22,279 bases of DNA from a virus. The position numbers and the translations under genes were made by a program. Positions 2,462 through 19,398 of the stretch are shown piece after piece. The stretch is taken from the IMG/VR virus record IMGVR_UViG_3300044637_003149, positions 1-22,279 of that record. The stretch is one strand, 5' to 3'. The notes beneath the pieces are model-generated. The model made no database searches, was not told the origin of the DNA, and saw nothing but the letters and a program-made list of their open reading frames with translations. Within the stretch, counting starts at the first letter, position 1. The number at the start of each line of letters is the position of its first letter.

Positions 2462-3352
2462 TTAAACCGCCTCCGTCACAGAAATAGCCGTGCAGTAAGG
2501 GGCTTGTGTTGCGGAAGCCACGACGTTCGCCGTGGGAGCAGTCAAACTCACAGACTCGACCCCTGCTTGATGCAAGGCAGCATAAAGCCCCGACAAACTC
2601 ACCGTAGCCCCCACTTTGTGTTGAGCATCCACATAAGCCGTTAAAGCCTCTTGAGCCGTTTCTAAAACAATCGCCATGTCTGGTCCCGTAAATAACGTAA
2701 GCTCTGCCGTCACGCTATAGTTTAAAATTGAAGCCGAAACAACTTCGACGGTATCCGTAAACGGACGCACACTTTCGGCGTTCAAGGCATTTTCCACCGC
2801 CGTCAATAAAGGTGTGCCTGCGGTTCCTGACCCTGTACGAGAAAGCACCGATACCTGCACCGTGCCTGCCGTCGGTTGTGTAATACCCACATCTTTCACA
2901 TCCGCATCAGCACTTAGGGCATGGAAGCGATAGGCTCCCACGCTTCCAGCGGTGCTAAATCCTTCTAAAGACAACTGAATCCGCTCTCTAAAATTATCGT
3001 CACTTTCCAACACCGCCTCAACAGGAGGAAAGGCTAACGGATCCGCAGGGATTAAAACAAAGCGTTCAACGCCGTAAAAGGCTCCCAACTGATCCAAGTT
3101 TGAGCCAATGGCATAGGCGAGCATGCACTGCTTCGCCGATTCATTGATGCGGTTTCTTAGCAATAACTCACGATACGCCATCGTTTCCAAAACCAAATAA
3201 GCAGGATCGCTCGGCAAAATACCTGTGAACAAATCAGGATTAAGGGCTTGTAAGTACACCAAGGACTCGTTTAAAATTGTCGTAAAGTCTAAAGGCTCCA
3301 CCACGGTGGGGGCTGGCAATTGGCTTAAATCAATGGCGGTAAACTCACTCAT
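2462..3352 (-). CDS. J: Baseplate J protein, wedge component
   Basis: This 296-residue protein belongs to the Baseplate_J family (P2 gpJ, Mu gp47). Visible signatures are the N-terminal ILPSDPAYLVLETMAYRELL, the central DDNFRERIQLSLEGFSTAGS and AYRFHALSADADVKDVGITQ, and the C-terminal VGATVSLSGLYAALHQAGVE. It forms the ring-linking part of the baseplate wedge with gpW and gpI. The ATG at 3352 overlaps the gpW stop (TAATG), giving translational coupling. Gene order W-J-I-fibre is the same as in P2. The length is normal and no break is seen. Confidence 0.9.
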   Translation of the reverse strand: MSEFTAIDLSQLPAPTVVEPLDFTTILNESLVYLQALNPDLFTGILPSDPAYLVLETMAYRELLLRNRINESAKQCMLAYAIGSNLDQLGAFYGVERFVLIPADPLAFPPVEAVLESDDNFRERIQLSLEGFSTAGSVGAYRFHALSADADVKDVGITQPTAGTVQVSVLSRTGSGTAGTPLLTAVENALNAESVRPFTDTVEVVSASILNYSVTAELTLFTGPDMAIVLETAQEALTAYVDAQHKVGATVSLSGLYAALHQAGVESVSLTAPTANVVASATQAPYCTAISVTEAV

Positions 3353-3687
3353 TAGCGTACTTGCACCCCTTGAATGTTAATCGGTTGACCGTTGGCTAAG
3401 ATCTCGGCGGACACATCGATCGTCGCCTTGCCTGTTTCATCAGACTTAACAGACACCTGCTTGACGCTAATGCGTGGTTCCCATAAAGCGAGGGCATCCG
3501 CCGATGCCGCAATCATCTTGAGTTTGGTGGACGCATTCATAGGGGCATCCGTAAGCTGAAAGAGCTGGGAGCCATACGCACGGTTCATCACCCGAGATCC
3601 TAACGGCGTGGTGAGAATATGCCCCACACTTTGGCGGATGTGGTCGGGGATATTTAAGCTGGTGCCGACGTGCCGATTCATACCCAT
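3352..3687 (-). CDS. W: Baseplate wedge protein W (gp25-like)
   Basis: This 111-residue protein of the GPW/gp25 family starts the W-J-I baseplate unit. The family pattern is clear: HIRQSVGHILTTPLGSRVMN followed by RAYGSQLFQL and a C-terminal segment ending in the strand PINIQGVQVR. Members polymerise at the base of the sheath and start sheath assembly. The ATG at 3687 has GGAGG with 7-nt spacing. Upstream there is a 139-bp gap holding an intrinsic terminator and one copy of the recurring 11-bp motif, so this gene may begin a separate transcription unit. Confidence 0.88.
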   Translation of the reverse strand: MGMNRHVGTSLNIPDHIRQSVGHILTTPLGSRVMNRAYGSQLFQLTDAPMNASTKLKMIAASADALALWEPRISVKQVSVKSDETGKATIDVSAEILANGQPINIQGVQVR

Positions 3688-3739
3688 TGGGGAGCCTCCA
3701 AAGCTTTTACCTGTTCAGCTTAGCAAGTCTCCCTCCTTG

Positions 3740-3750
3740 TTTCTTGGGCA
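3740..3750 (-). promoter_or_regulatory. Recurring 11-bp motif, copy C (before gene W)
   Basis: Plus-strand TTTCTTGGGCA, identical to the core at 7421, 11559 and 17482. In this copy the flanking CGTAA element is degenerate (CGCAA after a 6-nt spacer). It lies between the terminator hairpin and the W start codon. A role as a late activator site is inferred from its position. Confidence 0.4.
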
Positions 3751-3759
3751 ACGATACGC

Positions 3760-3789
3760 AAAAAAATCCCCGATGCTCATGCGTCGGGG
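3760..3789 (-). terminator. Rho-independent terminator between genes V and W
   Basis: Read on the minus strand, a 9-bp stem (CCCCGACGC / GCATCGGGG, one G-T wobble) closes a 4-nt loop and is followed by A and seven T residues. This is a classical intrinsic terminator, lying 38 bp after the spike gene stop and within what is usually one continuous baseplate operon. Confidence 0.85.
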
Positions 3790-3826
3790 GATGATGATAG
3801 GGATTTCATCGGACGTTAAATTAAGA

Positions 3827-4375
3827 CTAAGACATGGGAGGCGTGGCTCCTGCCCCACCGTGGTTGTGGCTGTTGTACTGGCTACGCATTGTTGCCATCG
3901 TGCCTGTGGCATCGGCGACGGTGCTTCCTACAATAGCCCCACTTACTGTTAAATTGCCTTGAATTGAAATACTTCCTTGCCACGTCGTCAATGGGCAGGT
4001 CACCGCAAGGGAACCTGTCGAATCCACCGTAAGGGCTTTGGTGCTTGTGTTGTACATGAGCTTTGTGCCGTCGCCAAAATCGATGTAGTGCTGATTGGCG
4101 GTTCCGCCCGAAGCCCCCACAACACCGCCTAAGGCAAAGGCATGTTCCCAATTGTGATCAGGCACGATTAAAACGCAGTGTGTGCCGATGCTTGGCACGC
4201 TCCACACCTTCACCGCTCCCCATGCAGGAGACACCCATGGAATCCAATCCGTGACCAATTCGCCGTCGTCGACTTTCACTCGAGCAGTCGTGGCATCAAT
4301 GGCGACCACTTCGCCTGCTGTCGTGCTTTGGGCTTGCTGGCGTTGCGTTTCCGCAAGGGCATACTGATTAAACAT
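3827..4375 (-). CDS. V: Baseplate assembly protein V, tail spike
   Basis: This 182-residue protein matches the P2 gpV / Mu gp45 spike family. It has an OB-fold-like N-terminal part (residues 20-95: VVAIDATTARVKVDDGELVTDWIPW and following, split by the family PSIGTHCVLIVPD motif). A repetitive beta part follows (IDFGDGTKLMYNTSTKALTV), then a tip with His-Asn-His near residues 170-172. HxH at the tip of such spikes is known to bind iron. The ATG at 4375 overlaps the upstream stop, and GGAGG is about 10 nt upstream. The trimer pierces the outer membrane at the end of the tail tube. Confidence 0.88.
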   Translation of the reverse strand: MFNQYALAETQRQQAQSTTAGEVVAIDATTARVKVDDGELVTDWIPWVSPAWGAVKVWSVPSIGTHCVLIVPDHNWEHAFALGGVVGASGGTANQHYIDFGDGTKLMYNTSTKALTVDSTGSLAVTCPLTTWQGSISIQGNLTVSGAIVGSTVADATGTMATMRSQYNSHNHGGAGATPPMS

Positions 4376-4908
4376 TAAAGAATCACCTCCGTGCTAGGGT
4401 TGGCTCCGTTGACGGTAACGTAAGCAGAAATATGCTCAAACTCCACCGTAAGCGGATCTTCCCAAATGTTTATCCCTGCCAAGGCTTCCGTGTGGGCTTC
4501 AATGAGCATGACCGCATACTTTCGGTTTTTATCGTCCATCATAAAGTCGGTGGTGATGTCGTCGATTTTAAAGTGCTTAATGGGTTGATCAAACTGATTC
4601 AAGTGAATCGCTTGAGCCACCTTTAATGCCAAGCCTCGTGCCTTGAGCTGGGCGTTGCCTTCATCAATCAAGACGACTCGAAATTCAAAGTCCAACTGCA
4701 CACGCAATTGCTCGCCACCGCCTTGTTCCGCTACAGGGTTCATGCGGTTACATTCAATCGTCAGCAAGGGAAAGTCTTGTCCATGCCACGTTTCAAAGTC
4801 TATAAAGGTATAATCCGCCTTAATGGTTTTTAAGGCAGGCACAGCCGTTGCCAACGCTTCGGCAATCGCCGTGTGCAAGTCCTGTAAATTAACGGCAGGA
4901 ATATCCAT
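4375..4908 (-). CDS. Tail completion/terminator-like protein (Mu gp37-like)
   Basis: This 177-residue acidic protein begins with a helix (NLQDLHTAIAEALATAVPAL). It continues with alternating strands, including FPLLTIECNRMNPV and the pair LDFEFRVVLIDE / KYAVMLIEAHTEA. This layout resembles Mu gp37-type proteins that sit next to the joining and Z proteins and cap the tail tube. It lies between the Z-like gene and the spike gene V, where such proteins occur in P2/Mu hybrid prophages. Start at the ATG at 4908 behind AGGAG, directly touching the Z-like stop. The family assignment rests on overall pattern and position rather than a diagnostic motif. Confidence 0.5.
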   Translation of the reverse strand: MDIPAVNLQDLHTAIAEALATAVPALKTIKADYTFIDFETWHGQDFPLLTIECNRMNPVAEQGGGEQLRVQLDFEFRVVLIDEGNAQLKARGLALKVAQAIHLNQFDQPIKHFKIDDITTDFMMDDKNRKYAVMLIEAHTEALAGINIWEDPLTVEFEHISAYVTVNGANPSTEVIL

Positions 4909-5409
4909 TTAAATCGCTCCTAATCGGTGTAAGTGATGCTCGTAACGGCTTACAAAGTAAGCAATCATCTGTTCTAAAACGCCATCCATTAAAGATTCTG
5001 ATTCCGTCACAGGCATATCTTGCTTGACTTTAATAATCGGCAATCGACTATTGCCTAGTCGCATGTAGACGCTTTTTTTAGGACTGTTCTTTTTGAAAAA
5101 CGCCCCTTCATACTGAACTTTGTTTGCCTTGATACCTCGTGCGGTTTGGGTTGGCTTTAAATAAGCCAAATCCACAGGGTTTAAGCCCAAGAAAACCGAG
5201 CCTTTGCCTTCAGACGCTTGAATACGTTGCAACAACCGCTTTTTCAACACAGAAGCAGGCACTAGCCCCTTGAGTTCTTTTTGTACTAAGCTTCGCCCTC
5301 TACGAGTGGCATCACTCAAGGCAAAACGCTTGGCTTTTTCTGCTTCACTCCCTAGGCTTTTAATCCATTGATCAAGGGGGGCTTTATTAAATTTGGCACT
5401 TATTGCCAT
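4909..5409 (-). CDS. Prophage minor tail protein Z-like
   Basis: This 166-residue basic protein has an N-terminal helical region (AEKAKRFALSDATRRGRSLV) followed by VQKELKGLVPASVLKKRLL. A beta segment comes next (KGSVFLGLNPVDLAYLKPTQ) and then a basic strand region up to residue 135. This is the pattern of the GPZ minor tail / tail completion family, in which a helix with RA.N...R is followed by an activation loop-like pL..y segment. The ATG at 5409 overlaps the upstream gene by 10 bp and has GGAGG with 7-nt spacing. Its role would be head-tail joining or tail completion. A known head partner is not visible in this window. Confidence 0.6.
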   Translation of the reverse strand: MAISAKFNKAPLDQWIKSLGSEAEKAKRFALSDATRRGRSLVQKELKGLVPASVLKKRLLQRIQASEGKGSVFLGLNPVDLAYLKPTQTARGIKANKVQYEGAFFKKNSPKKSVYMRLGNSRLPIIKVKQDMPVTESESLMDGVLEQMIAYFVSRYEHHLHRLGAI

Positions 5410-5759
5410 TCAAAGACCTCCTCTTCTTCCGTATTGGAACCTGTCGCAATATCGTTGACGTGATTAAGCGTCAAGCCAAACCGAACGAGACCAAACTCGT
5501 CATGCAAGGCATGGGTAATGCGGTAATTCGTCTCATGGATCGTGACAATATCATCACGCTTGAGACCTTGCGACTCACTCATCTGCATAATCGCCACAGC
5601 CTCCGCTTCCTCTAAAGTCAAAATACCTAAACGCACCAACATTTCAGGCGACTGTAAAATACAAAGGGCTTCATGCGGTTCGCCGTCTTTCACCCAAGCA
5701 ATAGATTGAGCAAACTCATCGCCGTCAAAGAGTTCATTTAAATCGGGTAAGGGTAACAT
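5400..5759 (-). CDS. Small head-tail joining-like protein
   Basis: I chose the ATG at 5759 (119 residues, MLPLPDLNELFDGDEF). AGGAG sits 6 nt upstream and the gpD stop is only 1 bp away. The upstream in-frame GTG at 5774 has no ribosome site and would overlap gpD. The body has a beta-rich layout, with ALCILQSPEMLV, then DIVTIHETNYRIT, then FGLVRFGLTL. This resembles the small joining proteins (often labelled ATP-binding sugar transporter-like) that precede the Z protein in Mu-like prophages. The C-terminus is acidic (SNTEEEEVFEWQ). Family assignment is tentative; gene reality is secure from the overlap with Z and the ribosome site. Confidence 0.55.
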   Translation of the reverse strand: MLPLPDLNELFDGDEFAQSIAWVKDGEPHEALCILQSPEMLVRLGILTLEEAEAVAIMQMSESQGLKRDDIVTIHETNYRITHALHDEFGLVRFGLTLNHVNDIATGSNTEEEEVFEWQ

Positions 5760-5760
5760 C

Positions 5761-6756
5761 TTAATCTCCTTCACAGTTTAATTGGGTGGTTAACCCTTGG
5801 GTTAAATCGAAATTATGGGTGACTCGTATAATCTGCCACGTCACCCCTGCAATCGGCGGTGTCGTGCCTGTAATCGTGACTTTGTGCAAGGCAAAGATAG
5901 ATGTATCGCCTAAGGGGAGTTTCAGGCTCAAGCGTCGGCTTGATTTCTGTGTCTGATTCAAGTGAGCTGATGCCGCCTGTTGGGCTTGGCTCAAACTGGG
6001 GAAGACGGTTTTTAAGCGTCGCACAGGCTCCCCCGAACCAACAATAATACTTTCGGCTTTCTTTTGCGTGCGTGAACGGTAACGTGCCACGCATGAACCG
6101 CCTTCGCCACGTCCGCCGTCGCTGTACTGTAGACTGCTGACTTCTTTTGCATTAAAGCGATGAAGGGGCAGGTTTTGACCTGTAGGCGTAATCAATGAGC
6201 CAAGGGCTTGAAAAATGAGGGAGCCGCCATTAATTTTAAACGTGGCATGATTCGTGCGTGCCAAGCGTTGCACCAAGTGCAGATCGCTTTCTTGCCTTTG
6301 ATAAAAAGCCGTCATGGGAATACCTGCCAAGGAAGGACTAATCGACGCATTCAAGCCATTCCGCTTAGCGATGCTTTGAAGCACAACGCCTAGCGTCCCT
6401 GCTTGCCACGCTTGCGTTCGTTGGCTCTGCATTTGCTTATAGCTGGCATTTGTATTGAGGGGAGTCCCCTTGCATCGCAAGACAACCAAGCGACTGTCTT
6501 CGTCGATTTCTCGTTCATCCACCACATACCGCCCGACTTTAATCAAGCCCGACTCAAGAAAGCCGATGCTAGCTTCAAGAATCGCCCCACGATGCGGAAT
6601 GACTAAAGTCGGCTGACGCACCAAAACCAATTCCAAGGCATCCGACTCGTCTTTCGCATCATCGGTGACGGAAAGTTCCACAAAAAGAGGCTTTAGTTTT
6701 TCAGTGACATCTTCACCATTGACGACGAGTTTAAAGGCAGGGGTTCGCATTACCAT
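5761..6756 (-). CDS. D: Late control gene D-like tail protein, baseplate hub
   Basis: This 331-residue protein matches the P2 gpD / Mu gp44 hub family. N-terminal signatures are FKLVVNGEDVTEKLKPLFVE, then TDDAKDESDALELVL and VGRYVVDEREID. The middle contains LHLVQRLARTNHATFKINGG, and the C-terminus has PLGDTSIFALHKVTITG. The hub trimer connects tube and spike. The name late control refers to a regulatory observation in P2; the family role is structural. The ATG at 6756 has GGGGAGG 10 nt upstream and overlaps gpX by 7 bp; a second ATG at 6750 is less well spaced. Order U-X-D is as in P2. Confidence 0.88.
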   Translation of the reverse strand: MVMRTPAFKLVVNGEDVTEKLKPLFVELSVTDDAKDESDALELVLVRQPTLVIPHRGAILEASIGFLESGLIKVGRYVVDEREIDEDSRLVVLRCKGTPLNTNASYKQMQSQRTQAWQAGTLGVVLQSIAKRNGLNASISPSLAGIPMTAFYQRQESDLHLVQRLARTNHATFKINGGSLIFQALGSLITPTGQNLPLHRFNAKEVSSLQYSDGGRGEGGSCVARYRSRTQKKAESIIVGSGEPVRRLKTVFPSLSQAQQAASAHLNQTQKSSRRLSLKLPLGDTSIFALHKVTITGTTPPIAGVTWQIIRVTHNFDLTQGLTTQLNCEGD

Positions 6757-6956
6757 AAGACAATCGCCTCCCCTTCATTACTGGGAGCCTTCCAGTCAGG
6801 CAGGGTAATCTTCATCCCTTGCGTCAATTCAGCAGGGGCATTGGCAATCAAGGGATTCGCTTCAAGCACGGTTAAAACGGCATCCGTACTGCCGTAATGC
6901 TGAAAGCAAATCAAGTCGATCGTGTCGCCGTCGTGCGACGTGTAAAGTACCGTCAT
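6750..6956 (-). CDS. X: Tail protein X, LysM-like
   Basis: This 68-residue protein is the small tail protein X of P2-like phages. The signature is a LysM-like fold: SHDGDTIDLICFQHYGS, then VLEANPLIANAPAELTQGMK, then ITLPDW. Members act in tail completion, probably at the baseplate hub. Its ATG overlaps the gpU stop (TAATG), so it is coupled to U, and it overlaps D at its end. Length and order U-X-D are normal for the family. Confidence 0.88.
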   Translation of the reverse strand: MTVLYTSHDGDTIDLICFQHYGSTDAVLTVLEANPLIANAPAELTQGMKITLPDWKAPSNEGEAIVLW

Positions 6957-7372
6957 TATTTACCCTCCACTCGGCTTAATTCAAGCCTTACTTTGGTTTT
7001 GAGCAATTGACCCGAAAGCGTGTATTGATCGCCCGACTCGCCGATGCTTTGAATCACCCAATTACCGTGGTTCTTACCCATGCCGTCATAGAGGGGGGCA
7101 GGCTTGCCCGAAGCAGCCAAGGCATCTAGCTTAGCCAAATCCACGCCGTTGTCATTTTCACGACCCAACTCCGACCGCAAGCCCTTGGCAAACAATACGG
7201 CATCAACGGCATAGGTTTCTAAGCCACGCCCCATGTACTGGTGAACGACACCTGCTCCTAGCGTGTCTTGGCTGGTGTATCGGTACGTTTTACTGCGGCT
7301 CATGGATTCAAGGGCAAGGGTGCTGATTGTAAACTGCACGTCGCCCAGTTGCATCATAATGTCTTGACTCAT
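6956..7372 (-). CDS. U: Tail protein U (P2 gpU-like)
   Basis: This 138-residue protein matches the gpU family. It begins MMQLGDVQFTISTLALESM, continues with RSKTYRYTSQDTLGAG, and has the typical RGLETYAVDAVLF and GNWVIQSIGESGDQYT segments. In P2, gpU is needed for tail completion. It is followed without gap by X and D. Its ribosome site (AAAGGGG) is the 3' arm of a hairpin that ends 9 nt before the ATG, so translation or transcription may be controlled there. It is separated from the tape measure gene by the inserted accessory cassette; in P2 the two are neighbours. Confidence 0.85.
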   Translation of the reverse strand: MSQDIMMQLGDVQFTISTLALESMSRSKTYRYTSQDTLGAGVVHQYMGRGLETYAVDAVLFAKGLRSELGRENDNGVDLAKLDALAASGKPAPLYDGMGKNHGNWVIQSIGESGDQYTLSGQLLKTKVRLELSRVEGK

Positions 7373-7375
7373 GCG

Positions 7376-7411
7376 AAAAATCCCCTTTCATACCTTAAGT
7401 ATAAAAGGGGA
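7376..7411 (-). promoter_or_regulatory. Hairpin covering the gene U ribosome site, terminator-like
   Basis: On the minus strand, CCCCTTTT-ATAC pairs with GTAT-GAAAGGGG (11 pairs, one mismatch, loop TTAAG). The hairpin is followed by ATTTTT and then CGC and the U start codon. It has the form of an intrinsic terminator. Its 3' arm is also the only Shine-Dalgarno for gene U, so it could act as a terminator for hicAB read-through, an RNA switch, or both. Confidence 0.65.
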
Positions 7412-7417
7412 CTGTCT

Positions 7418-7447
7418 TTATTTCTTGGGCATAAATCGTAAGGATTT
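7418..7447 (-). promoter_or_regulatory. Recurring motif, copy A (before gene U)
   Basis: A 30-bp segment containing TTTCTTGGGCA (7421-7431) and then CGTAAGGATTT on the plus strand. It is identical at 26 of 30 positions to the segment at 11556-11585 before the tape measure gene. It overlaps the last bases of hicB and lies just upstream of the gene U hairpin. Candidate late-activator or promoter element; no strong minus-10 box is seen, which would suit an activator-dependent promoter. Confidence 0.5.
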
Positions 7448-7802
7448 AGAACTTGGGGGTGAGTCCAAACTTCTCAATCGTCATGCGTTCAATGAGTTCA
7501 CCGACGCTAACGCCTGCTTCTTTCGCTTGGAGCTTCAAGGTCGCTTTGACATCCGCAAATAAACGAGTCGTCAAGTTTTGACGACCTAAGGCAGGTCGCC
7601 CCACCTTTTGGTTCATGTAGTGATTGCCTTGTTCAAAGGCTTCCCATTGAGACGCAAGCATTACGCCAAAAATCTGTATGGCTTCTTCTTTCGTGTCGCC
7701 ACAGCCAATATGCACATCCCACAAATCGCTTTCAGCGACAAAGCATTCGCCTTCTTCGTCCCACCGTGTTTTAAGGGTTTTTAAAATATCACTTTGTTTC
7801 AT
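7446..7802 (-). CDS. hicB: HicB-like antitoxin
   Basis: This 118-residue protein has the HicB layout. Residues 11-60 form a degenerate RNase-H-like fold (WDEEGECFVAESDLWDVHIG, then CGDTKEEAIQIF). A C-terminal ribbon-helix-helix segment follows (residues 65-110: GRPALGRQNLTTRLFADVKA, then AGVSVGELIERM). It should bind and neutralise the HicA toxin and repress the shared promoter. It follows hicA by 14 bp in the usual toxin-first order; the ATG at 7802 has AAGGA about 11 nt upstream. The position inside a tail operon suggests an inserted stabilisation or lysogen-maintenance module. Confidence 0.8.
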   Translation of the reverse strand: MKQSDILKTLKTRWDEEGECFVAESDLWDVHIGCGDTKEEAIQIFGVMLASQWEAFEQGNHYMNQKVGRPALGRQNLTTRLFADVKATLKLQAKEAGVSVGELIERMTIEKFGLTPKF

Positions 7803-7816
7803 TATGAGTAGGTTCC

Positions 7817-8038
7817 TTATGGGTTATTCGCTAAAAAAGCGTGGCATGTTTTAAGAACTTTACGGTAATAAGGCATCTTCACCATGCCTCTTTTGGCATT
7901 CTTGCCGTGAGTCGTGGCAAAGGCAGTCACCCAACGGTGTTTCCAATAGATTTGATAATGTCCGCTGGCGTCTTGTTTGACGGTGAAGCCGAGGGCTTCC
8001 AATTCGGCTTTCAGTTGCTTAAAGGTAAACTCGGGCAT
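7817..8038 (-). CDS. hicA: HicA-like toxin (mRNA interferase)
   Basis: This 73-residue protein matches the HicA fold. The start is FKQLKAELEALGFTVKQD, then SGHYQIYWKH, then a basic C-terminal helix (MVKMPYYRKVLKTC). His27 in SGHYQIYW corresponds to the conserved catalytic His of HicA, a dsRBD-like RNase that cleaves mRNA. The family motif is usually GSHH or GSH, here SGHY, so it is a divergent member. The ATG at 8038 has AGGA about 10 nt upstream. A strong promoter with a palindromic operator lies immediately upstream (8070-8113). Confidence 0.72.
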   Translation of the reverse strand: MPEFTFKQLKAELEALGFTVKQDASGHYQIYWKHRWVTAFATTHGKNAKRGMVKMPYYRKVLKTCHAFLANNP

Positions 8039-8069
8039 GGGCGGTCTTTCCTGTGCTGGATATGCTTTT

Positions 8070-8113
8070 AGTATAATTCATAATTAGGATATTGTCAATA
8101 CCTTAATTATGAA
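8070..8113 (-). promoter_or_regulatory. hicAB promoter with palindromic operator
   Basis: On the minus strand there is TTGACA (8098-8093), a 17-bp spacer and TATACT (8075-8070), a near-perfect sigma70 promoter. An inverted repeat at 8077-8113 has two 18-bp arms, TTCATAATTA-AGGTATTG and its partner, with 16 of 18 positions matching around one central base. It covers the minus-35 box and the spacer. Autorepression by the HicB ribbon-helix-helix domain is the natural inference. Confidence 0.85.
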
Positions 8114-8121
8114 ACACAAAC

Positions 8122-8148
8122 AAAAAGGGAGCCGATGAAGGCTCCCTT
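8122..8148 (-). terminator. Intrinsic terminator after the terminase-like gene
   Basis: Minus-strand stem AAGGGAGCC / GGCTCCCTT is perfect over 9 bp with a TTCATC loop, and runs into a five-T tract. It lies 9 bp after the stop of the terminase-domain gene and just before the hicAB promoter, so it closes the upstream two-gene unit. Confidence 0.92.
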
Positions 8149-8156
8149 GGGGTTGC

Positions 8157-8972
8157 TTAAGCCTTAGATGCTATTTCTAAGACTTTTTCAACTTCACTTA
8201 ACCGCCTGTTCAAGTCTTCAAGCGTGACAGGCTTCTTCGCAGGAGGCTCTATTTCTTTATAGCCTTTAAAATCACACCATGCCGCTAGTGCAAAGAGTCT
8301 TAAATCTAAGGCATCGGTGTCTCTGCCTTGCTGATTCACCCAAAACCAACCACCCTCAAGCTTGATGTATTGTTGTGACGTTAAGGACGAAAAATAAGCG
8401 TCACTGTTCATCCCGTACCTGAAATGGAAGGGGTATACGTCCCTATTGTTCAAGAGCTTGTAAAAGAAAGACTTGATTCGGTCATGGCTTATAAAATAAA
8501 GCGGAGCCTCCTCACGCTCGTCCATATCGTTCAGCTCGTCGTTAGAAAAAGAGCTGACCAACGGATGTTCCCCATAAACGACTTTACACATCGACACGCT
8601 AGAATCGACATCCTTGTCTTGCACAAACGCTAAGACTTGGCGTGGCAAAAAGCCACTGTCGATAAACGTGCGACCAATCGGCATAGGCTTGCCGTCTTCA
8701 TGTTGGTAGACCTTGTTCAAGCGTTGATACAAAATGTCCCATATGTTTTTATTCGTGGGGTCACCATGAATGGCACCCCAATCGATCGACCAGCTTTCAA
8801 AGCGTTCGCCCCAACCCACCACTTCATATTCCAAACGGTTTTTAAACACCGCCACGCCTGCGGTTAACGCCAGTACCCCTTTAGGCACTTCGGCGTTGTA
8901 CACTTCTAAACAGGCTCTTAAGTCTTCAGGGCGGACTTGGGGTTTTGTTTCTAATACAGTCGGATTCATCAT
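8157..8972 (-). CDS. Stand-alone terminase nuclease-domain paralogue, catalytically altered
   Basis: This 271-residue protein is clearly related to residues 349-570 of the large terminase in this window. Shared blocks include LEVYNAEVPKGVLALTAGV, NRLEYEVVGWGERFESWSID, FIDSGFLPR, and DALDLRLFALAAW near the end. It lacks the whole ATPase domain. In the terminase the motif TAGVDVQ holds catalytic Asp374; here it is TAGVAVF, so position 41 is Ala (codon GCG against GAT). The other acidic residues remain (Glu48, Asp105, Asp223). The loop at 120-155 is different and the C-terminal helix (residues 245-270) is new. It starts at the ATG at 8972 and follows the 123-residue gene by 4 bp; a terminator follows it. 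An intact reading frame argues against a decaying fragment. Role unknown: packaging regulator, decoy subunit or interference with other phages. Confidence 0.85.
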   Translation of the reverse strand: MMNPTVLETKPQVRPEDLRACLEVYNAEVPKGVLALTAGVAVFKNRLEYEVVGWGERFESWSIDWGAIHGDPTNKNIWDILYQRLNKVYQHEDGKPMPIGRTFIDSGFLPRQVLAFVQDKDVDSSVSMCKVVYGEHPLVSSFSNDELNDMDEREEAPLYFISHDRIKSFFYKLLNNRDVYPFHFRYGMNSDAYFSSLTSQQYIKLEGGWFWVNQQGRDTDALDLRLFALAAWCDFKGYKEIEPPAKKPVTLEDLNRRLSEVEKVLEIASKA

Positions 8973-8976
8973 AACC

Positions 8977-9348
8977 TTAGTTTCCTTTATTCTTAGGGGT
9001 ATTTAACTCTTTTAAGCGTGCTTCAAAAATCAGCTTCTTCCGCCACGCCCGATCTTCTTCGAGCTTCTTGGCTTCGGCTTCACGCTTTTTCACCAACTCC
9101 GCATGCGTGGCTTTGCGTTCCAAACGCTTCACCTTCTCATGCTTCATGGGTTCGGCTCCGTGCAGAATCTGTAGAATCTGCTTCTTTTGTTGCAGATTCA
9201 AACGGTATTCTTTCGGAAATTCATGCACCACAGACCCCCCTTGGGGGTAGGTCGTGGTGACACGAATGTAGCCGAAATGCACTTCATGTTGCCCCAACAG
9301 TTCGTGAGGCATCTCACCGCCTGTGGCGGTGTAGAGGTCGTTATTCAT
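8977..9348 (-). CDS. Unknown protein with basic coiled-coil tail, first gene of the cassette
   Basis: This 123-residue protein starts at the ATG at 9348 with AAGGA about 9 nt upstream. Residues 1-55 look globular with strands (HEVHFGYIRVTTTYPQGGSV, then VHEFPKEYRLN). Residues 56-115 are strongly charged and helical (KHEKVKRLERKATHAELVKK and following), a likely coiled coil or nucleic-acid-binding helix. I do not recognise a family. It is placed 4 bp before the terminase-like gene and shares its promoter and leader, so the two products probably work together, for example as a small-subunit-like partner. That pairing is an inference from co-transcription only. Confidence 0.6.
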   Translation of the reverse strand: MNNDLYTATGGEMPHELLGQHEVHFGYIRVTTTYPQGGSVVHEFPKEYRLNLQQKKQILQILHGAEPMKHEKVKRLERKATHAELVKKREAEAKKLEEDRAWRKKLIFEARLKELNTPKNKGN

Positions 9349-9509
9349 TTGACTTTTTTCCTTTTCTAGGGGAATTCACAACGTAAAAAAGGGCTTGGAT
9401 GTAGAAAACCCGAAAAGTCAACGGGCGATTTTGCCTTGCGACAGAATCCATCCAAACCCTAAAAATAGGTTTGTTTTTTGTAGTTGACTTTTGAGGGTTT
9501 TCTAAGCCC
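9349..9509 (-). repeat. Inverted-repeat-rich leader between the tape measure gene and the cassette
   Basis: This non-coding stretch holds related elements built on TTGACTTTT...TTTTCTA...AGCCC. Copies are at 9349-9372 and 9483-9509 (plus orientation) and 9391-9422 (opposite orientation); a shorter opposite copy is at 9531-9546. Copies 9391-9422 and 9483-9509 form arms of a long imperfect hairpin with a 60-nt loop. Within that loop, 9458-9468 can instead pair with 9391-9401 (10 of 11 bases), giving alternative folds. A transcript starting near 9511 would carry these structures in a roughly 160-nt leader. Confidence 0.6.
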
Positions 9510-9517
9510 ATGTGTTT

Positions 9518-9546
9518 ATTAAAGCAAATGGGGCTAGAAAAGTCAA
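9518..9546 (-). promoter_or_regulatory. Promoter for the terminase-like cassette
   Basis: Minus-strand TTGACT (9546-9541), 17-bp spacer and TTTAAT (9523-9518) make a good sigma70-type promoter, 32 bp after the tape measure stop. The minus-35 box is itself part of one of the TTGACTTTT repeats, so a protein binding the repeats would compete with or recruit RNA polymerase here. Confidence 0.7.
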
Positions 9547-9578
9547 GCGGTTTTTTTGAACTCGTTTGTTCGGGGGAG

Positions 9579-11513
9579 CTACGCATATTCAGGCATGTCC
9601 GACATCGTGCCTTGTGTGGCATTCTTTGCCATATCCATAAAGGCGGTCAACTGCTGACGACTCGGCAGGCTTGCCACCTGCACCACGACCGTACCTCCGC
9701 CAGCACTCGCTTTTTTAGCAGGGCTTTGTCTCTTGGCAGGAGGCACAACATTGGGGTTATAATAGGGTGTGGATTCATCCCAAAAGGCATCCCCTGTCTT
9801 CGTGGATTTGGGCGTGTAAGATTTGACAAAGGTTTGAATGCCTTTCTTTTCTTTTTCCGTGGCAGGTCTTGTACCTGCTTTAATCACATTTGTCATTAAA
9901 TCTAAGGCACCCGCCGTTAGGTCGGCGAGTTTGGATCCGATCGGATTAAGAGCGACTAACACTTGCGTACTAAACTTGTGCCAACTCGACCCCAGTCGCT
10001 GTGTACTCGCTTCACTGCTTTGGCTGATATTCTTAAAATCACGATCAATCGCCCCAGCGGAATCCTTGCTAGACTTTTCTTTAATGCGTTCGTACTCTTG
10101 CCAGTTCGACATCATAGGAATCAGGAAGTTCTTCACCTGTTGATCGCCAAACAAGGCACTCATCACCTTTAGATCTGTGCCGTTCTTCGTCATTTCACGG
10201 ATCTTCATCATAAAGGCTTCTAAGCCCGATTCGGCTTTGGGGAAGTATTTCTTCGGATTGGCGATTAAATCGACCACATCCACGCCTTTTTTACTGAACT
10301 TGTTTAGCGTTTCAGTTGAATAAGCCTTAGACAGGAAGTTGAAGAGGTTGTTAGCCGCTTCTTCAGGTGTACCTGCTCCCTTTTTAGCGACTTGGAGCAT
10401 TGCCCCCACCGCAGGAAGGTTCTTTTGATCAAGGTTCATTACTTTAAACATAGCACCCAACTTCGGCATGAATTGAGCCATGTTGTTCAACTCAAAGCTT
10501 CCCAGCTTCCCTGCGGTGGAAAGCACATCTAGGGCTTTGCCTATGTCTTGAGGCTTAACGCCCATGTGAAGACTTAACGCCGTCGCCAGTTCCGCCATAT
10601 CCAGCGGATCCGTCCCACTGCCCTTGCTTGCCTTCGCCAGCGTCGGCAACATCGCTAACGCCGTTTGAGTCTGTACACCGTTGGCAATCAACACCTGCAA
10701 GGCATCGATCAGTTGAGGCTCCTGCATCAGGCTCATGCTACTGGTGCGAAGCAAGGTATCGGAAATCGTGCCACGCATGGAATCACTAAATCCGCCTGTA
10801 TTCTGCATCAAACGCAAGGCGGTGTCTTTACTGCGGTAGGCTTGCCCTTCGGCTCCGTTAAACATCCCCACCGCTCCGCCTGCTAAACCCAAGGCTCCCA
10901 TCGTCGCCAAACCTGCCCCACCCCCAAAGAGGGTAGATGCCACCATGCCCGCACCGCCCATCATGGGGTTACCGCCAAGCAAAGTCGTCAGGGGCAAGGC
11001 ACTGCTAATCGTTTCCCATTTTTTACCCCACTTGATTTTAGAGTCTAAACGAGTCCTCACTTCTATTTGAGACTTTAACACACTGGTGAGCTTTTCCTCA
11101 TTGCGTGCCACATCTTTCGTGTAAAGCCCTTGCGACTTCAGTGAAGCCTTATAATGACGCATGGAGTTTCCTAAGACCTTATGCTGGCGTTCTTGGGTTT
11201 TCAAAAGCCTCGTATAATGTTCCATTTGGCTTGTGGCGGTGGCATCTAAACTGCCTGAATTCTTCAAAACCGTCTGAAACTCTTTAAGCTTGGTCTTGGT
11301 GGTGCCGATGCCTTTTTGAAGAGCGACCAAGTTATTCTTGGTTTTGTTAAAGCCTCCAAGGGTTTTAGCAGCACTGTCGGCAGCTTTAAACTGCTTATTC
11401 AGCGAATCCACGCCTTTGGACGTGGCGTTCAACGCATTTTGAGCCGTCTTTAAGCCCTTTTCAAGACCGCTGGCATTGGCTTCTACTTCAAGAATCGCTC
11501 GCATTTTGGACAT
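9579..11513 (-). CDS. Phage tail tape measure protein
   Basis: I chose the ATG at 11513 (644 residues, MSKMRAILEVEANASGLEKG). GGAAGGGA lies 7-10 nt upstream, whereas the upstream in-frame GTG at 11534 has no ribosome site. The protein has an N-terminal coiled region (residues 10-165) typical of TP901-type tape measures. A Gly/Ala/Met-rich hydrophobic stretch follows (about 176-219), then the conserved core (about 235-480: MSLMQEPQLIDALQVLIANG, ATALSLHMGVKPQDIGKALD). The C-terminus is Lys/Pro-rich. The protein sets tail length. Its length suggests a tail of around 100 nm, using the usual 1.5 angstrom per residue. In P2 it is preceded by sheath, tube and E genes and followed by U; here both neighbours are replaced by accessory genes. 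Confidence 0.9.
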   Translation of the reverse strand: MSKMRAILEVEANASGLEKGLKTAQNALNATSKGVDSLNKQFKAADSAAKTLGGFNKTKNNLVALQKGIGTTKTKLKEFQTVLKNSGSLDATATSQMEHYTRLLKTQERQHKVLGNSMRHYKASLKSQGLYTKDVARNEEKLTSVLKSQIEVRTRLDSKIKWGKKWETISSALPLTTLLGGNPMMGGAGMVASTLFGGGAGLATMGALGLAGGAVGMFNGAEGQAYRSKDTALRLMQNTGGFSDSMRGTISDTLLRTSSMSLMQEPQLIDALQVLIANGVQTQTALAMLPTLAKASKGSGTDPLDMAELATALSLHMGVKPQDIGKALDVLSTAGKLGSFELNNMAQFMPKLGAMFKVMNLDQKNLPAVGAMLQVAKKGAGTPEEAANNLFNFLSKAYSTETLNKFSKKGVDVVDLIANPKKYFPKAESGLEAFMMKIREMTKNGTDLKVMSALFGDQQVKNFLIPMMSNWQEYERIKEKSSKDSAGAIDRDFKNISQSSEASTQRLGSSWHKFSTQVLVALNPIGSKLADLTAGALDLMTNVIKAGTRPATEKEKKGIQTFVKSYTPKSTKTGDAFWDESTPYYNPNVVPPAKRQSPAKKASAGGGTVVVQVASLPSRQQLTAFMDMAKNATQGTMSDMPEYA

Positions 11514-11555
11514 AAAACATTCCCTTCCAACCACCAGTATAGAAGGTAGTGCATC

Positions 11556-11585
11556 TTATTTCTTGGGCAGAAACCGTCAAGATTT
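11556..11585 (-). promoter_or_regulatory. Recurring motif, copy B (before the tape measure gene)
   Basis: A 30-bp segment with TTTCTTGGGCA (11559-11569), then CGTCAAGATTT on the plus strand; 26 of 30 positions match copy A. The inner TTTCTTGGGCAGAAA is a short inverted repeat (TTTCT/AGAAA). On the minus strand the segment reads TTGACG, 16 bp, TAAGAT, which would make a weak promoter for the tape measure gene that could need an activator. A weak 5-bp hairpin (11594-11610) lies just upstream. Confidence 0.5.
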
Positions 11586-11635
11586 TATTAAATTGCAGAA
11601 ATAAACTGCATCAAGTGTATTCATAATTCACCTTT

Positions 11636-12346
11636 CTATTTTTTGTACCCATTAGAGACGTAAACCAATTGTTCCAACTCACGATCTACAAAACTCTGCC
11701 ATTCAAGAGAGGAATCTTTATCTCCTTTTTGTAGAAGGGTAATATACTCTTCTGGCGTAACGCAATCTTTTCTATTTTCTCTGTATGGATACCATGTTCT
11801 AGTGGGTCTCGGGTATTTCTTTACAAAAGCATCAAGGCACTTTCGCATTATGGTGAAACTTTGATACTGATTATAAGACGAGAGCATATTAAAAAAGGCT
11901 TCCTTTGCTCTAGCTTGTCGCTCTAAAAAAACCTCTAAAAACTCGTCATCACCTCTTTTGCAAGTGTATTGCCTGTATTGATCATGCTTAAGTAAGTAGC
12001 ACAAGCTGTTTATGATAAGACCACCTTTTATATCTTTTAAAATATGCTTCGCAAAGCAGGATGCAGACGGAATCCACTCAAACTCAAAAGATTCAGGATT
12101 TCCCCCATAATTAAAATGTTCTTTTAGGAAATCCGATATACGTTGATTCTCAATGTGTTTAATTCGTGAATTGAAAACGTCTAAAGATGGAATGCCTTCA
12201 TGTAAAAAAGGCTCTCCATTTCGTTCTCTCTTTTTAAAATCTTGCCCCATCAATTCATTATAAATTCTAACGTACTCTTGATGAGTGGGTAAGTGGTCTA
12301 ACATCTCAATAATTTTATCAAAATAACAGTGAGTTTCGTTAGGCAT
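11636..12346 (-). CDS. Unknown accessory (moron) protein with its own promoter
   Basis: This 236-residue protein begins MPNETHCYFDKIIEMLDHLP. I do not recognise a family. It is mostly helical, rich in aromatic and charged residues, with Cys at 7, 97, 115, 129, 170 and 195 (approximate) and no clear metal motif or membrane segment. The gene is visibly AT-richer than the tail genes and is flanked by non-coding DNA on both sides. GGAG lies 6 nt before the ATG, and an extended minus-10 promoter with a 24-bp palindrome is directly upstream. These are the marks of a lysogenic-conversion or defence moron inserted before the tape measure gene. Function is not assignable. Confidence 0.55.
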   Translation of the reverse strand: MPNETHCYFDKIIEMLDHLPTHQEYVRIYNELMGQDFKKRERNGEPFLHEGIPSLDVFNSRIKHIENQRISDFLKEHFNYGGNPESFEFEWIPSASCFAKHILKDIKGGLIINSLCYLLKHDQYRQYTCKRGDDEFLEVFLERQARAKEAFFNMLSSYNQYQSFTIMRKCLDAFVKKYPRPTRTWYPYRENRKDCVTPEEYITLLQKGDKDSSLEWQSFVDRELEQLVYVSNGYKK

Positions 12347-12366
12347 CGTACTCTCCTTTTTTCTAA

Positions 12367-12407
12367 ATTATAACATCAAGTCTTTTTTTGCGGACGTCCG
12401 CAAAAAA
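12367..12407 (-). promoter_or_regulatory. Promoter overlapped by a perfect 24-bp palindrome (candidate operator)
   Basis: The segment 12384-12407 is a perfect palindrome: six T, GCGGACGTCCGC, six A. On the minus strand an extended minus-10 (TG-T-TATAAT, hexamer 12372-12367) lies 11 bp downstream of it, with no good minus-35 hexamer. Taking +1 near 12360, the palindrome is centred near -36. A dimeric regulator binding there could replace the minus-35 contact or block the polymerase. The LuxR-type gene ends 9 bp upstream, making its product the obvious candidate. It is not a usual terminator, because no T tract follows the GC stem. Confidence 0.75.
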
Positions 12408-12415
12408 CGCTTTGT

Positions 12416-12985
12416 TTAAATAGCAGATTCAAGATCAATTTCTTCAATCCCAACCAAACCGTATTTGATCGCATAAAGGCAGGCTTGGGTGCGGTCGTTT
12501 ACACCTATTTTTTTGTAGATGTGGGTTAAGTGGGTGTTAATCGTTTTAGGACTCAACACCAGCATTTCAGCAACGCTCTTTTTGTCATGCCCTTTGGCGA
12601 CAAGCTTCAAGACTTCTAACTCACTCGCCCTTAAGTCGTCTAGCTTGCTGGGGCATGGATTTTCTGAAAGCATCCATAACAGGGTCAAGCCTCCATTAAG
12701 CGTGTCCGCCAAGTGGTAGAGGCTCATTTTTTCGTCGAAATAAACCGCTTGAACTTTAGAGCCTTTTTCTAAGCGGATCGGTAAGTCTTCGTACTCTATC
12801 AATTTTTCGGTAAAAAACCCCAAAGTCCGAGGGGGGCTGGCGATATTTCTCACCAAACGAATGGAGACTTCTTCCTTTTGCTTATCCAGCAAGGCTTGGA
12901 AGTGGAACAGGTTGCCGTTAATGCCAACCGTTCCGTCGCCATGGCGATTCAACAGTTCTTTTAGATCTGAAATAGTCAGCTCCAT
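12416..12985 (-). CDS. LuxR-type (GerE HTH) transcription regulator
   Basis: This 189-residue protein has a clear C-terminal LuxR-family DNA-binding domain (about residues 115-180): RASELEVLKLVAKGHDKKSV, then the recognition region SPKTINTHLTHIYKKIGV, then NDRTQACLYAIKYGLV. The N-terminal 110 residues are neither a recognisable receiver (no phospho-acceptor Asp pattern) nor a known autoinducer domain, so the signal is unknown. It starts at the ATG at 12985 with GGAG 10 nt upstream and closes the accessory train. A palindromic site lies just beyond its stop, in the promoter of the next gene. LuxR-type regulators are uncommon in the late region of a phage. Confidence 0.85.
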   Translation of the reverse strand: MELTISDLKELLNRHGDGTVGINGNLFHFQALLDKQKEEVSIRLVRNIASPPRTLGFFTEKLIEYEDLPIRLEKGSKVQAVYFDEKMSLYHLADTLNGGLTLLWMLSENPCPSKLDDLRASELEVLKLVAKGHDKKSVAEMLVLSPKTINTHLTHIYKKIGVNDRTQACLYAIKYGLVGIEEIDLESAI

Positions 12986-12990
12986 AGGGC

Positions 12991-13476
12991 TTAGGCTCCC
13001 TCTGCTTTTTTGAGTTCAATTTCTTTTAAAAACTTTTGGGAAATCAGGCACGGCATAAAAAACCCAACGACTTCGCCATTAAAAGCAAAATAAATAGGTT
13101 TTAATCTGCTTTTTTGCCAAAAAGTAAACTCTACCAAGGACTTATTGGTAAACTCATTAAAAACATAAGAAGCAATATAAGATTCAATTTTGCCAATTTT
13201 TACTTTTACAAAATCCTTGTGAGTCTCTTCGGTTTTTTCAAGTTTGGAAAATTGGGTACAATCCAAATTTTCAAAATCTAAAATTAAAGGCTTTGTCTTT
13301 AGAGTAACCTTATTCTTAACAGTGGAACCCGTTATATCGACGAATCTTTTATTGACTGCAATAATTGCATTTGAATACAAGGTACGATCATTTAATTCCA
13401 ACTCGTATAGATCTTTAAATTGAAAAAGACCGTTTCTTTTAATCTTAAATGTTTGTTTGACTTTTGCAATCTTCAT
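12991..13476 (-). CDS. Unknown AT-rich accessory protein
   Basis: This 161-residue basic protein has no motif I recognise. The sequence alternates short strands (LYSNAIIAVNKRFVDITGST, IESYIASYVFNEFT, LKPIYFAFNGEVVGFFMP) with Lys-rich segments, suggesting a beta-rich fold. It has only two Cys and no membrane segment. The ATG at 13476 overlaps the stop of the membrane-peptide gene (TAATG), with AAGG in GAAGGTGACTA as ribosome site. It is AT-richer than its neighbours, like the 236-residue moron gene downstream, which suggests recent acquisition. It ends KKAEGA, the C-terminal pattern shared by several genes in this train. Confidence 0.5.
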   Translation of the reverse strand: MKIAKVKQTFKIKRNGLFQFKDLYELELNDRTLYSNAIIAVNKRFVDITGSTVKNKVTLKTKPLILDFENLDCTQFSKLEKTEETHKDFVKVKIGKIESYIASYVFNEFTNKSLVEFTFWQKSRLKPIYFAFNGEVVGFFMPCLISQKFLKEIELKKAEGA

Positions 13477-13661
13477 TAGTCACCTTCTTTCTTGCTTACA
13501 TCACGAATAAAATCATCAAAAGTTTTTTCAGCCTTTGGTAGCCCATATTTCAATATGCCTACGATTAGAGCAAAGGGCAGAATGGCCAATTGGATAAACA
13601 CCCAAAGCAAAACAAGAAAAAGCTTGAGGGTCACACGAATGATCATACGCAACATTTCCAT
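13476..13661 (-). CDS. Small membrane protein
   Basis: I chose the ATG at 13661 (61 residues, MEMLRMIIRVTLKLFLVLLW). AAGG lies 6-7 nt upstream within the junction GAAGGTGAGTG; a GTG one codon earlier is less likely. A hydrophobic segment covers about residues 6-40, long enough for one extended or two tight membrane passes. A charged C-terminus follows (KAEKTFDDFIRDVSKKEGD). It has no recognised family. It may act at the cell envelope, for example in superinfection exclusion or as an extra lysis factor, but nothing specific supports this. It overlaps the ASCH gene stop (TGATG). Confidence 0.55.
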   Translation of the reverse strand: MEMLRMIIRVTLKLFLVLLWVFIQLAILPFALIVGILKYGLPKAEKTFDDFIRDVSKKEGD

Positions 13662-14056
13662 CACTCACCTTCTTTCTGTAGTTTCCACTCAATCAGATAC
13701 CCCTCAAACGGCAAGTCGCCATATTGAGCCACAAAGAATGCCTTCATCTCTTCAAAGTCTTTGAAGCCGTCTTTTTTAGCCAACTTATTGAGTGTCTCAT
13801 AATTGGCAGAGGCGACCATTTTAAGGCAGTCTCCTTTAGTGGGGGAATACGTCCTGATGTGATTTTCAAAAATAAGAATCTGCGAGACTTTTTTCACAAC
13901 GGCTTCACCCAATTGACGACACGCCTTTGTACGTTGCCCTGTGTAGAGCTGGAGGGTATCCCCCACCTTAAAGCGGTTCGTCCGCCGTATCGTCTGCGTC
14001 TTCTTGCCTGTAGCGACGGCATCCGCAAATTGCTCTTTAAAATTGAGGGCTATCAT
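13661..14056 (-). CDS. ASCH-domain protein
   Basis: This 131-residue protein begins MIALNFKEQFADAVATGKKT, followed by QTIRR and VGDTLQLYTGQRTKACRQLG. This is the ASCH fold signature: the conserved Lys/Thr-Ile-Arg segment at residues 19-25 and GDxLxLyxG near 32-40. ASCH domains are PUA-like and bind RNA or modified nucleosides; one bacterial member hydrolyses N4-acetylcytidine. Phage copies of this type are common and uncharacterised. The ATG at 14056 overlaps the upstream stop (ATGA), with GGAGG 7 nt upstream. The C-terminal half (residues 75-131) is a helical extension (NYETLNKLAKKDGFKDFEEM). Confidence 0.75.
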   Translation of the reverse strand: MIALNFKEQFADAVATGKKTQTIRRTNRFKVGDTLQLYTGQRTKACRQLGEAVVKKVSQILIFENHIRTYSPTKGDCLKMVASANYETLNKLAKKDGFKDFEEMKAFFVAQYGDLPFEGYLIEWKLQKEGE

Positions 14057-15643: not shown

Positions 15644-15657
15644 GCTTCACCTGCTTT

Positions 15658-15858: not shown

Positions 15859-15872
15859 TATTTACCTCCAAA

Positions 15873-15894
15873 CCCTCCCCAAGAAAGGGGAGGG
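15873..15894 (-). terminator. GC-rich hairpin after the DUF2303 gene
   Basis: CCCTCCCC and GGGGAGGG pair perfectly (8 bp) around a 6-nt loop. On the minus strand only three T follow before the ribosome site of the next gene, so it is a weak or partial terminator, or a stabilising 3' hairpin. On the plus strand GCTTTAT follows. It separates the terminase/DUF2303 unit from the accessory train. Confidence 0.6.
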
Positions 15895-17405: not shown

Positions 17406-17406
17406 A

Positions 17407-19398
17407 TTAACGACCTCCATACGTCAAGCGGCGTGACCGCTTCTTTTTCTTAATTTCTACTTTATCTAAAATTACCTCCTCTTTCTTGGGCATTTTTCGT
17501 AAGTTTTCTTTTGAATTTTCTGCAGTCATTTCCTCTAATTTCTTCAATACGTTCCTGTATTCCTCTTTTCCTGCATCGTCCGAAATTCCTGCAATACTTT
17601 CCTGTATTTCTCTTTTTTCTTGAGATATCCTATTGATTTTAGATTCCAATTTACGGGCGATTCTATGCCAGTTGGGATCCAAGTTATGACACGCAGCGAG
17701 AGCATAGACCCTTAAATCCAACGCTTCGTTCCGCTTGCCCCCTTGATTGACCCATTCATAGCGAATGCCTGCCTTGGTGTCCTTCTTTACACGCTTTTCA
17801 GCGGTCAATTGGGCGAAATAGTTCTCGTTATTCATGCCGTCTTTAAAGTGGCAGTAGCCAGCCCCGACTTCATCCATGGTCAAGTAGCTATAAACGTGCA
17901 TCTTGGCTTCATCCACACCGATCATGTAAAGGGGGACGGTTCGCTGTTCACGATCGCTACGCTTCTTCTGTTGAGGTTTTTCCACCAATGGGTAAGAACC
18001 ACCACGCCCTTTAGAAGCAGAAACACCCGAACTTGCCCCTTTTTTCGCCACAAAGTCATACACGGCACGAGGTAAGAATCCTGAATCGATAAAGGCACGA
18101 GCAATCGTCATTTTCAAACCGCTGTCATGCGTGTAACGCTTAGTAAGGATCTCATCCAAGGCTTGCCACGTTTCTTGATGCAAGGGGTTTCCATAAATCA
18201 CACCCCAATCCACCGACCAGCTTTCGTAGCCCATGCCCCAACCGATGACCTCGTATTCCAAACGGTCTTTCTGCACATCCACGCCTGCGGTTAAAATCAA
18301 CACGCCCTTCGGTACGTCCGCCGTGTAGACTTCTAAACGCTTCATAAGCCCTTCGGGTTCCACCGATTCGCCCACGTCCGACCACGGCAAGCCTAGCGTC
18401 GTGTTTTGAAAAGTTTTTTGTCCTTGAATGCCTCTAGTCATTGCCTCGTGAAAAGTAACCGATATATCTTTCCAACTTATAAAAGGGCTGAGAAAACCCG
18501 GAACATGAAAACTACGAATATCGGTGACTTCGGGGTTTTGAGCCACAAACTCGCCCCCCATCGCCTTCCAGTCGTACTCATCGTGAAAGGAGCCACAGGC
18601 AGGACACGCCATTTGATAGGTGTCACAATCAAAACGGTCAAACTCAAAGACGCTCGACTCGCCACAACTCGGGCAAGGGGTCATCCATAGTTCTTGGCTC
18701 CCTAGCAGGTATTCTGCCTTAATGCGACTGGTCGTGGCATCTGTGGGAGTACTGGTATTGACCTCCTTAAAATCCCAGTAACTATTTCCACGTTGACGAG
18801 CCAAGAGCATCGGGTCACCTTCGCCGTCCACATCCAAAGCATATCGGTCACATTCATCCATTAAAAGCAAGCCAACACTATTCATGGCTAAATCACCACT
18901 GGCTTGCGTCCCTGCCATCTTTAAAAATCCACTAGGAAACTGAATATGAGTAAGTGAATTTTCAGTTTGAGTGCCTCTCAAGGTTCCTGTCAAGGCGAGT
19001 AAGCCTTCATTCCCTTCAATAAAAGGACGCATTTTATTTTTCACAAACTCTTTGCAAAGCCCGATATTGGGTTGAATAAACAAGATAGGTCGTGGGCGTT
19101 CTTTCATGTAGTAGCCGACCGCACATTGCTGAATGAGTGTTTTACCGATTTGTGAGCCTGACATCACGGCAATCCGTCTCACCTTAATGTCTGAAATCGC
19201 ATCTAGTATGGGAGCTTGATAAGGAGCCGTCTCACGACTCCACCGCCCCGACAAAGACGTATTGGTGGGCAACTTGATGTTCTGCTCCGTCCAATCACTC
19301 AAGTTCATCGTCAAAGGGGGTAAAAATTGACTCATCATCTTCTGAAAGAACTGCATCGTGTGATTCGGTATTTCCGCCCAGTTCGTCGTTAAAGTCAT
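17407..19398 (-). CDS. Phage terminase large subunit (lambda GpA family)
   Basis: This 663-residue DNA packaging motor and nuclease shows Walker A GSQIGKT (81-87), Walker B LLLMDE (177-182) and the coupling segment STPT (216-219). It also has a four-Cys zinc knuckle (CPSC 242-245, CPAC 265-268). The RNase-H-like nuclease has TAGVDVQKDRLE (Asp374, Glu381), FIDSGFLPR (Asp438) and EALDLRVYALAA (Asp561). Residues 580-663 form an extra charged, coiled-coil tail ending RRLTYGGR. AAGGA lies 8 nt before the ATG at 19398; that start overlaps the small subunit by 104 bp, so Met21 is an alternative. The next genes are not portal or head genes, which is unusual. A domain-level paralogue lies at 8157-8972. 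Confidence 0.93.
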   Translation of the reverse strand: MTLTTNWAEIPNHTMQFFQKMMSQFLPPLTMNLSDWTEQNIKLPTNTSLSGRWSRETAPYQAPILDAISDIKVRRIAVMSGSQIGKTLIQQCAVGYYMKERPRPILFIQPNIGLCKEFVKNKMRPFIEGNEGLLALTGTLRGTQTENSLTHIQFPSGFLKMAGTQASGDLAMNSVGLLLMDECDRYALDVDGEGDPMLLARQRGNSYWDFKEVNTSTPTDATTSRIKAEYLLGSQELWMTPCPSCGESSVFEFDRFDCDTYQMACPACGSFHDEYDWKAMGGEFVAQNPEVTDIRSFHVPGFLSPFISWKDISVTFHEAMTRGIQGQKTFQNTTLGLPWSDVGESVEPEGLMKRLEVYTADVPKGVLILTAGVDVQKDRLEYEVIGWGMGYESWSVDWGVIYGNPLHQETWQALDEILTKRYTHDSGLKMTIARAFIDSGFLPRAVYDFVAKKGASSGVSASKGRGGSYPLVEKPQQKKRSDREQRTVPLYMIGVDEAKMHVYSYLTMDEVGAGYCHFKDGMNNENYFAQLTAEKRVKKDTKAGIRYEWVNQGGKRNEALDLRVYALAACHNLDPNWHRIARKLESKINRISQEKREIQESIAGISDDAGKEEYRNVLKKLEEMTAENSKENLRKMPKKEEVILDKVEIKKKKRSRRLTYGGR
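17482..17503 (-). repeat. Recurring motif, copy D (inside the terminase 3' end)
   Basis: TTTCTTGGGCAT, then TCGTAAG on the plus strand; 19 of 22 positions match copy A. Here it is coding (LRKMPKK, residues 633-639 of the terminase). It lies about 80 bp before the terminase stop and could mark a site read in DNA or RNA, or be the source of the other copies by duplication. Confidence 0.4.

Follow-up and report, generated by a model that had tools for sequence, protein, structure and literature searches.

A stand-alone paralogue of the phage terminase nuclease domain that has lost its catalytic aspartate

We analyzed a 22.3-kb viral contig (IMG/VR record IMGVR_UViG_3300044637_003149; the whole stretch is referred to here as the window) in which a minus-strand gene at 8157..8972, within the tail region, encodes a 271-residue protein. 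We conclude that this protein is a real, unusual and selected paralogue of the terminase nuclease domain, standing alone, with alanine (Ala41) in place of the catalytic aspartate. The first-pass annotation had proposed that the product copies the nuclease domain of the large terminase subunit (TerL) encoded in the same window, and the comparisons agree. Over 225 amino acids the product is 48% identical to TerL residues 346-569 (E=8e-63, BLASTP), and the Pfam family GpA_nuclease (PF20454) matches it over profile positions 58-287 (9.5e-37; 127 bits, above the curated cut-off of 22.5). Its C-terminal residues, 232-271, show no alignment to TerL. The parent of the copied domain is a full-length TerL of the GpA family, encoded at 17407..19398 on the minus strand, which matches both PF05876 (8.8e-57) and PF20454 (8.3e-82). 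Pfam detected no ATPase domain in the 271-residue product, as had been proposed, and neither Pfam nor the list of open reading frames (ORFs) placed an ATPase frame near 8157-8972; the ATPase of the window sits in TerL, about 8.5 kb away. A PDB sequence search with TerL returned no relevant match, and the defence and NCBI libraries gave no useful match.

The AlphaFold2 model of the product, for which relatives served as the alignment, is confident (pLDDT 90, pTM 0.84) and has the RNase H-like fold of terminase nucleases. The top three solved-structure matches to the model are the HK97, Sf6 and SPP1 terminases (E 1.5e-4 to 7.8e-4), with TM-scores that are modest, in line with a distant comparison. 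In the model A41 ends strand 35-43, D105 ends strand 99-105 and D223 starts helix 220-236. From these placements we infer that the three residues occupy the expected triad positions and would correspond to D401, E458 and D542 of T4 gp17. The gp17 triad holds the catalytic metal, and the cut that initiates packaging fails in T4 gp17 nuclease-site mutants (PMC3012670).

The TerL residue D374 (GAT) corresponds to A41 (GCG) in the copy, so that two of the three codon bases differ, just as first annotated. Aspartate at this position is 100% conserved across 44 to 45 non-redundant relatives. The claim that the other acidic residues were kept is correct for D105 (TerL D438) and D223 (D561), but not for E534 and E558, which align with Q200 and D220. 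Additional changes in the copy are Q376F, G464V, E534Q, R556D, N557T, E558D and Y565F, all at positions that are 96-100% conserved in relatives; together with D374, eight near-invariant residues are altered, mostly in active-site elements. K130 and K167 are retained, which leaves the copy with two Asp and two Lys at family-invariant positions. In total 14 of the 48 strongly conserved residues are altered, most of the active-site shell among them, and the description of the domain as kept intact is therefore not supported. An active terminase nuclease requires the first-strand Asp and two more acidic residues, whereas the copy carries Ala41 with D105 and D223. Because a fully conserved Asp and other residues of the site are lost, the 271-residue product almost certainly lacks nuclease activity.

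In a tree built from 47 nuclease domains, the copy and the window's own TerL form a sister pair (support 100/99), and all of the inferred protein change lies on the copy's branch (1.67, versus 0 for TerL). The motif FIDSGFLPR is common to the copy and its own TerL, while most relatives carry DSGGH or similar. The copy is thus an old partial duplication of the phage lineage's own TerL gene. Since TerL has changed so little, it stands close to the ancestral state, and comparison with it shows the copy's changes directly.

The pattern of these changes argues for selection on a non-catalytic fold. The copy retains 34 of 48 family-conserved residues (71%) in comparison to 44 of 127 variable ones (35%; p=3e-5), and this preferential keeping of conserved residues points to selection for the fold. 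The frame has also stayed open, which a simulated neutral frame with at least 0.2 changes per site does in about 0.3% or fewer of runs. By the NG86 method dS between copy and TerL is 2.47 and dN is 0.49. The resulting pairwise dN/dS of about 0.2 is only rough because dS is near saturation; assigning all of dN and half of dS to the copy suggests a value of its own of roughly 0.4. The first-pass annotation had named a dN/dS near 1 and a recent fragment as observations that would speak against a maintained gene; neither is what we find, and a recent fragment is ruled out by the near-saturated synonymous sites.

The similarity in DNA that had been reported between the two genes is local. Overall identity is 57%, and only the stretch around residues 36-104 is excepted from saturation; positions 8757-8911 match 18184-18338 at 75%. 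The reported 16-bp identical run does exist and is the reverse complement of TTA ACC GCA GGC GTG, directly before the D374/A41 codon. Codons 36-48 show zero synonymous change, yet six changes fall across three motif codons. This clustering of similarity has p=0.02 against the codon usage of the window and p=0.00015 in a simpler shuffle that ignores codon bias. The pattern is suggestive of gene conversion between the copy and TerL, followed by selection.

The gene is rare among the sequences searched. Only one other carrier was found, a contig (L003) that is 99.9% identical to window positions 2498-11816, with gene and leader unchanged. At that identity L003 is not an independent lineage, but because it bears the same sequence a sequencing or assembly artefact is unlikely. 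Among the 79 other nearest viral loci the nuclease frames belong to terminases, and a second copy occurs in none of the stretches examined. In a wider set of loci the motif residue was readable in 178 frames, 176 with Asp, and was Ala only in the window and L003; short nuclease frames elsewhere in this set either are cut off at a contig end or come from split or broken terminases. Closed nuclease-only frames were inspected at seven loci and rejected as comparable cases, since an ATPase frame adjoins or overlaps them or the terminase is broken. The 276 gammaproteobacterial and 289 alphaproteobacterial genomes contained few nuclease-only matches, which, classed by frame length and position rather than by individual inspection, resemble remnants or contig ends. 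Codon-pattern scans of 2.9 million viral contigs recovered at least 120 motifs with Asp, none with Asn, Lys, Gln, His or Tyr, and no other Asp-less copy within the pattern's reach. One other non-Asp match (L095) was discarded as a chance match, since the neighbouring ORFs are unlike terminase. The pattern misses Glu and motifs without the G-x-D...E-x-E...GWG spacing, and the rarity therefore holds within the pattern's reach. The search for stand-alone homologues that keep the Asp, which the first-pass annotation had also named as contrary evidence, likewise found none. We found no description of a stand-alone inactive TerL nuclease in the open-licence literature, and the earlier statement that no phage gene of this form had been described is consistent with our failure to find a comparable case.

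The frame's 271 open codons begin with an ATG 4 bp past the stop of an upstream gene for a 123-residue protein (8977..9348, minus strand) and are preceded by a GGAAA-type ribosome site; presumably the two genes are co-transcribed. The 123-residue product lacks matches in PHROG, in phage tblastn searches and, above cut-off, in Pfam, and its low-confidence structure model contains a C-terminal helix at 82-116. A promoter, leader and terminator of its own had been attributed to the gene. The terminator is real and strong; it is of the intrinsic type and directly follows the pseudo-nuclease stop (8148-8125, minus strand), with the sequence AAGGGAGCC-TTCATC-GGCTCCCTT-TTTG, a 9-bp stem and a T tail. 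In the intergenic leader (230 bp; 9349..9578, minus strand), TTGACTTTT occurs in four alternating copies, along with nested inverted repeats; the leader folds with a minimum free energy of -60.7 kcal/mol (z -4.27; none of 200 shuffles was as stable). The ribosome site of the 123-residue gene is paired in the folded leader, which suggests translational control of that gene through the leader. The leader may act as a regulatory RNA or may be a small palindromic element; it has no Rfam match, and no phage relative was found. A promoter for the pair is unproven. A scan of the leader gave no consensus promoter; a TTGACT-N17-TTTAAT site visible by eye is a candidate.

Together with a HicAB-like pair, the leader, both genes and the terminator make up a 2.2-kb insert between the tape measure gene (9579..11534, minus strand; phrog_794, 1.1e-47), which forms the right border, and a gpU-like tail gene (6956..7372, minus strand; phrog_76, 3.5e-30), which forms the left. 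In Escherichia phage ECO1230-10 the long tail gene that occupies the tape measure position is directly followed by the contiguous gpU, gpX and gpD homologues, and no insert is present. The insert is thus an accessory ("moron") unit of the tail operon, its absence from the same site resting on this one comparison. Its other half (7446..8038, minus strand) consists of a HicA-like gene (7817-8038) and a HicB/RHH-like gene (7446-7802). Both are divergent and lie below curated cut-offs: the HicA_toxin match is weak (E=0.0025; 18.3 bits, under the cut-off of 27), and the HicB-like protein has weak RHH/NikA-like matches only (0.009-0.09). A strong promoter, TTGACA-17-TATACT at 8098-8070 (11/12), is assigned to the HicA-like gene, downstream of the 271-residue gene.

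The remainder of the window encodes TerS and a P2-like tail and baseplate set in addition to TerL and the tape measure protein, and all recognisable genes are on the minus strand. Unlike in ECO1230-10, neither 11636-17420 nor the rest of the window showed a recognisable portal, major capsid, sheath or tube gene. The contig may not extend to the head genes, or the element may be a defective phage or a satellite. Between TerL and the tape measure gene are also found an ASCH/DUF3850-domain protein (13661-14056) and a LuxR-type (GerE) regulator (12416-12985). Self-comparison revealed a perfect 24-bp palindrome at 12384-12407, just downstream of the LuxR-type gene, which is probably a terminator or an operator.

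We tentatively favor a role for the pseudo-nuclease in interfering with packaging by mimicry, at somewhat under an even chance and by analogy with known systems. The duplication kept only the RNase H-like nuclease core of the phage's own TerL, and the active site was dismantled. In lambda, the nuclease domains of two TerL subunits have been proposed to pair head to head when cutting cos (PMC10810279), and an inert copy could enter such a pair. The inert domain may therefore replace a TerL nuclease domain within the terminase assembly or, alternatively, may occupy the cut site without cutting. Either way, related co-infecting phages would have their genome cutting and packaging blocked or delayed, or the phage would time its own packaging. 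The hold-back, decoy or poison-subunit functions first suggested for the gene are plausible, given the precedents of Rpp and Tab.

Rpp of phage-inducible chromosomal islands is probably derived from TerS, forms heterodimers and blocks packaging (PMC6739421). Similar to our gene, it is a piece of a terminase subunit in a gene of its own, and it displaces the original in a complex, as we propose here. Rpp differs in deriving from TerS rather than TerL and in being satellite-borne, and it has no sequence-family kinship with the 271-residue product. Tab of prophage JBD26 is a moron that blocks virion assembly (PMC10884400); it likewise lies in a late structural operon with a partner gene nearby, and an action on assembly is what we propose here. 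In contrast, Tab has 83 residues and no likeness to a known domain, targets the tape measure protein, and sits between the terminase genes. The GpA-family TerL nuclease domain (PF20454, PHROG 15) shares with the copy its fold, sequence family and D105, D223, K130 and K167, but the copy is a separate gene in the tail region and lacks the ATPase domain and linker, the first Asp and most site residues. Split terminases also carry the nuclease half in its own frame; there, however, the ATPase half is adjacent, whereas the present phage has a full TerL besides and its copy lacks the Asp.

Several points weigh against interference with packaging by a copy of the phage's own TerL domain. The Ala is known from one phage population only, rather than from a series of homologues across lineages. 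The copy's long branch makes its placement in the tree less sure than the support value implies, and part of the divergence could have been inherited from another phage's terminase or could predate the truncation. In addition, a blocker of the phage's own terminase that is encoded in the late tail region, as here, would have to be held in check; the structured leader might do this.

The gene may instead have been co-opted outside packaging, as a scaffold for the 123-residue partner or in a host-directed moron function. The very fast protein change, the unaligned tail and the tightly coupled partner without a family match would fit this account, which we nevertheless consider unlikely, because the protein has preserved its fold and many residues specific to the family, as would be expected were the old binding surfaces still important. 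Rather unlikely, too, is that the protein binds DNA as a decoy or placeholder, at cos or at some other DNA structure, and regulates the phage's own maturation without contacting TerL: recognising a site without cutting it requires no first Asp, and the fold, both Asp and both Lys remain, but R556, N557 and E558, possible DNA contacts near the site, are lost. A functionless leftover in decay, whether from a second terminase or from a duplication, would account for the differences from TerL at about half of the residues, the loss of most active-site residues and the single phage population known as carrier. This is distinctly improbable in view of the open frame with its start, ribosome site, 4-bp coupling and terminator, the preferential retention of conserved positions, and a sister relationship that ties it to its own TerL and not to some other terminase. 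A nuclease that is still active through a rearranged site, built on the remaining two Asp and two Lys, is very improbable given the Ala at a fully conserved position, the additional loss of Q, E, R and N from the site region, and the metal-holding role of the equivalent T4 triad (PMC3012670).

The fuller form of the mimicry account, possible though doubtful, is that this is the first TerL-derived pseudo-nuclease, in which a phage duplicated its own cutting domain, lost the active site under selection, and deployed the product with a partner and a structured RNA leader as an inhibitor of related phages' packaging or as its own timer. Blockers derived from TerS, such as Rpp, are already known, while no description was found of a protein built from a silenced TerL nuclease domain. 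Our results suggest that the gene may act by controlling or sabotaging packaging, not by cutting DNA. Should the product bind TerL, it would offer a natural dominant-negative probe of how nuclease domains pair at cos, a step of genome maturation that is still unsettled, and might represent a new class of virion-assembly immunity.
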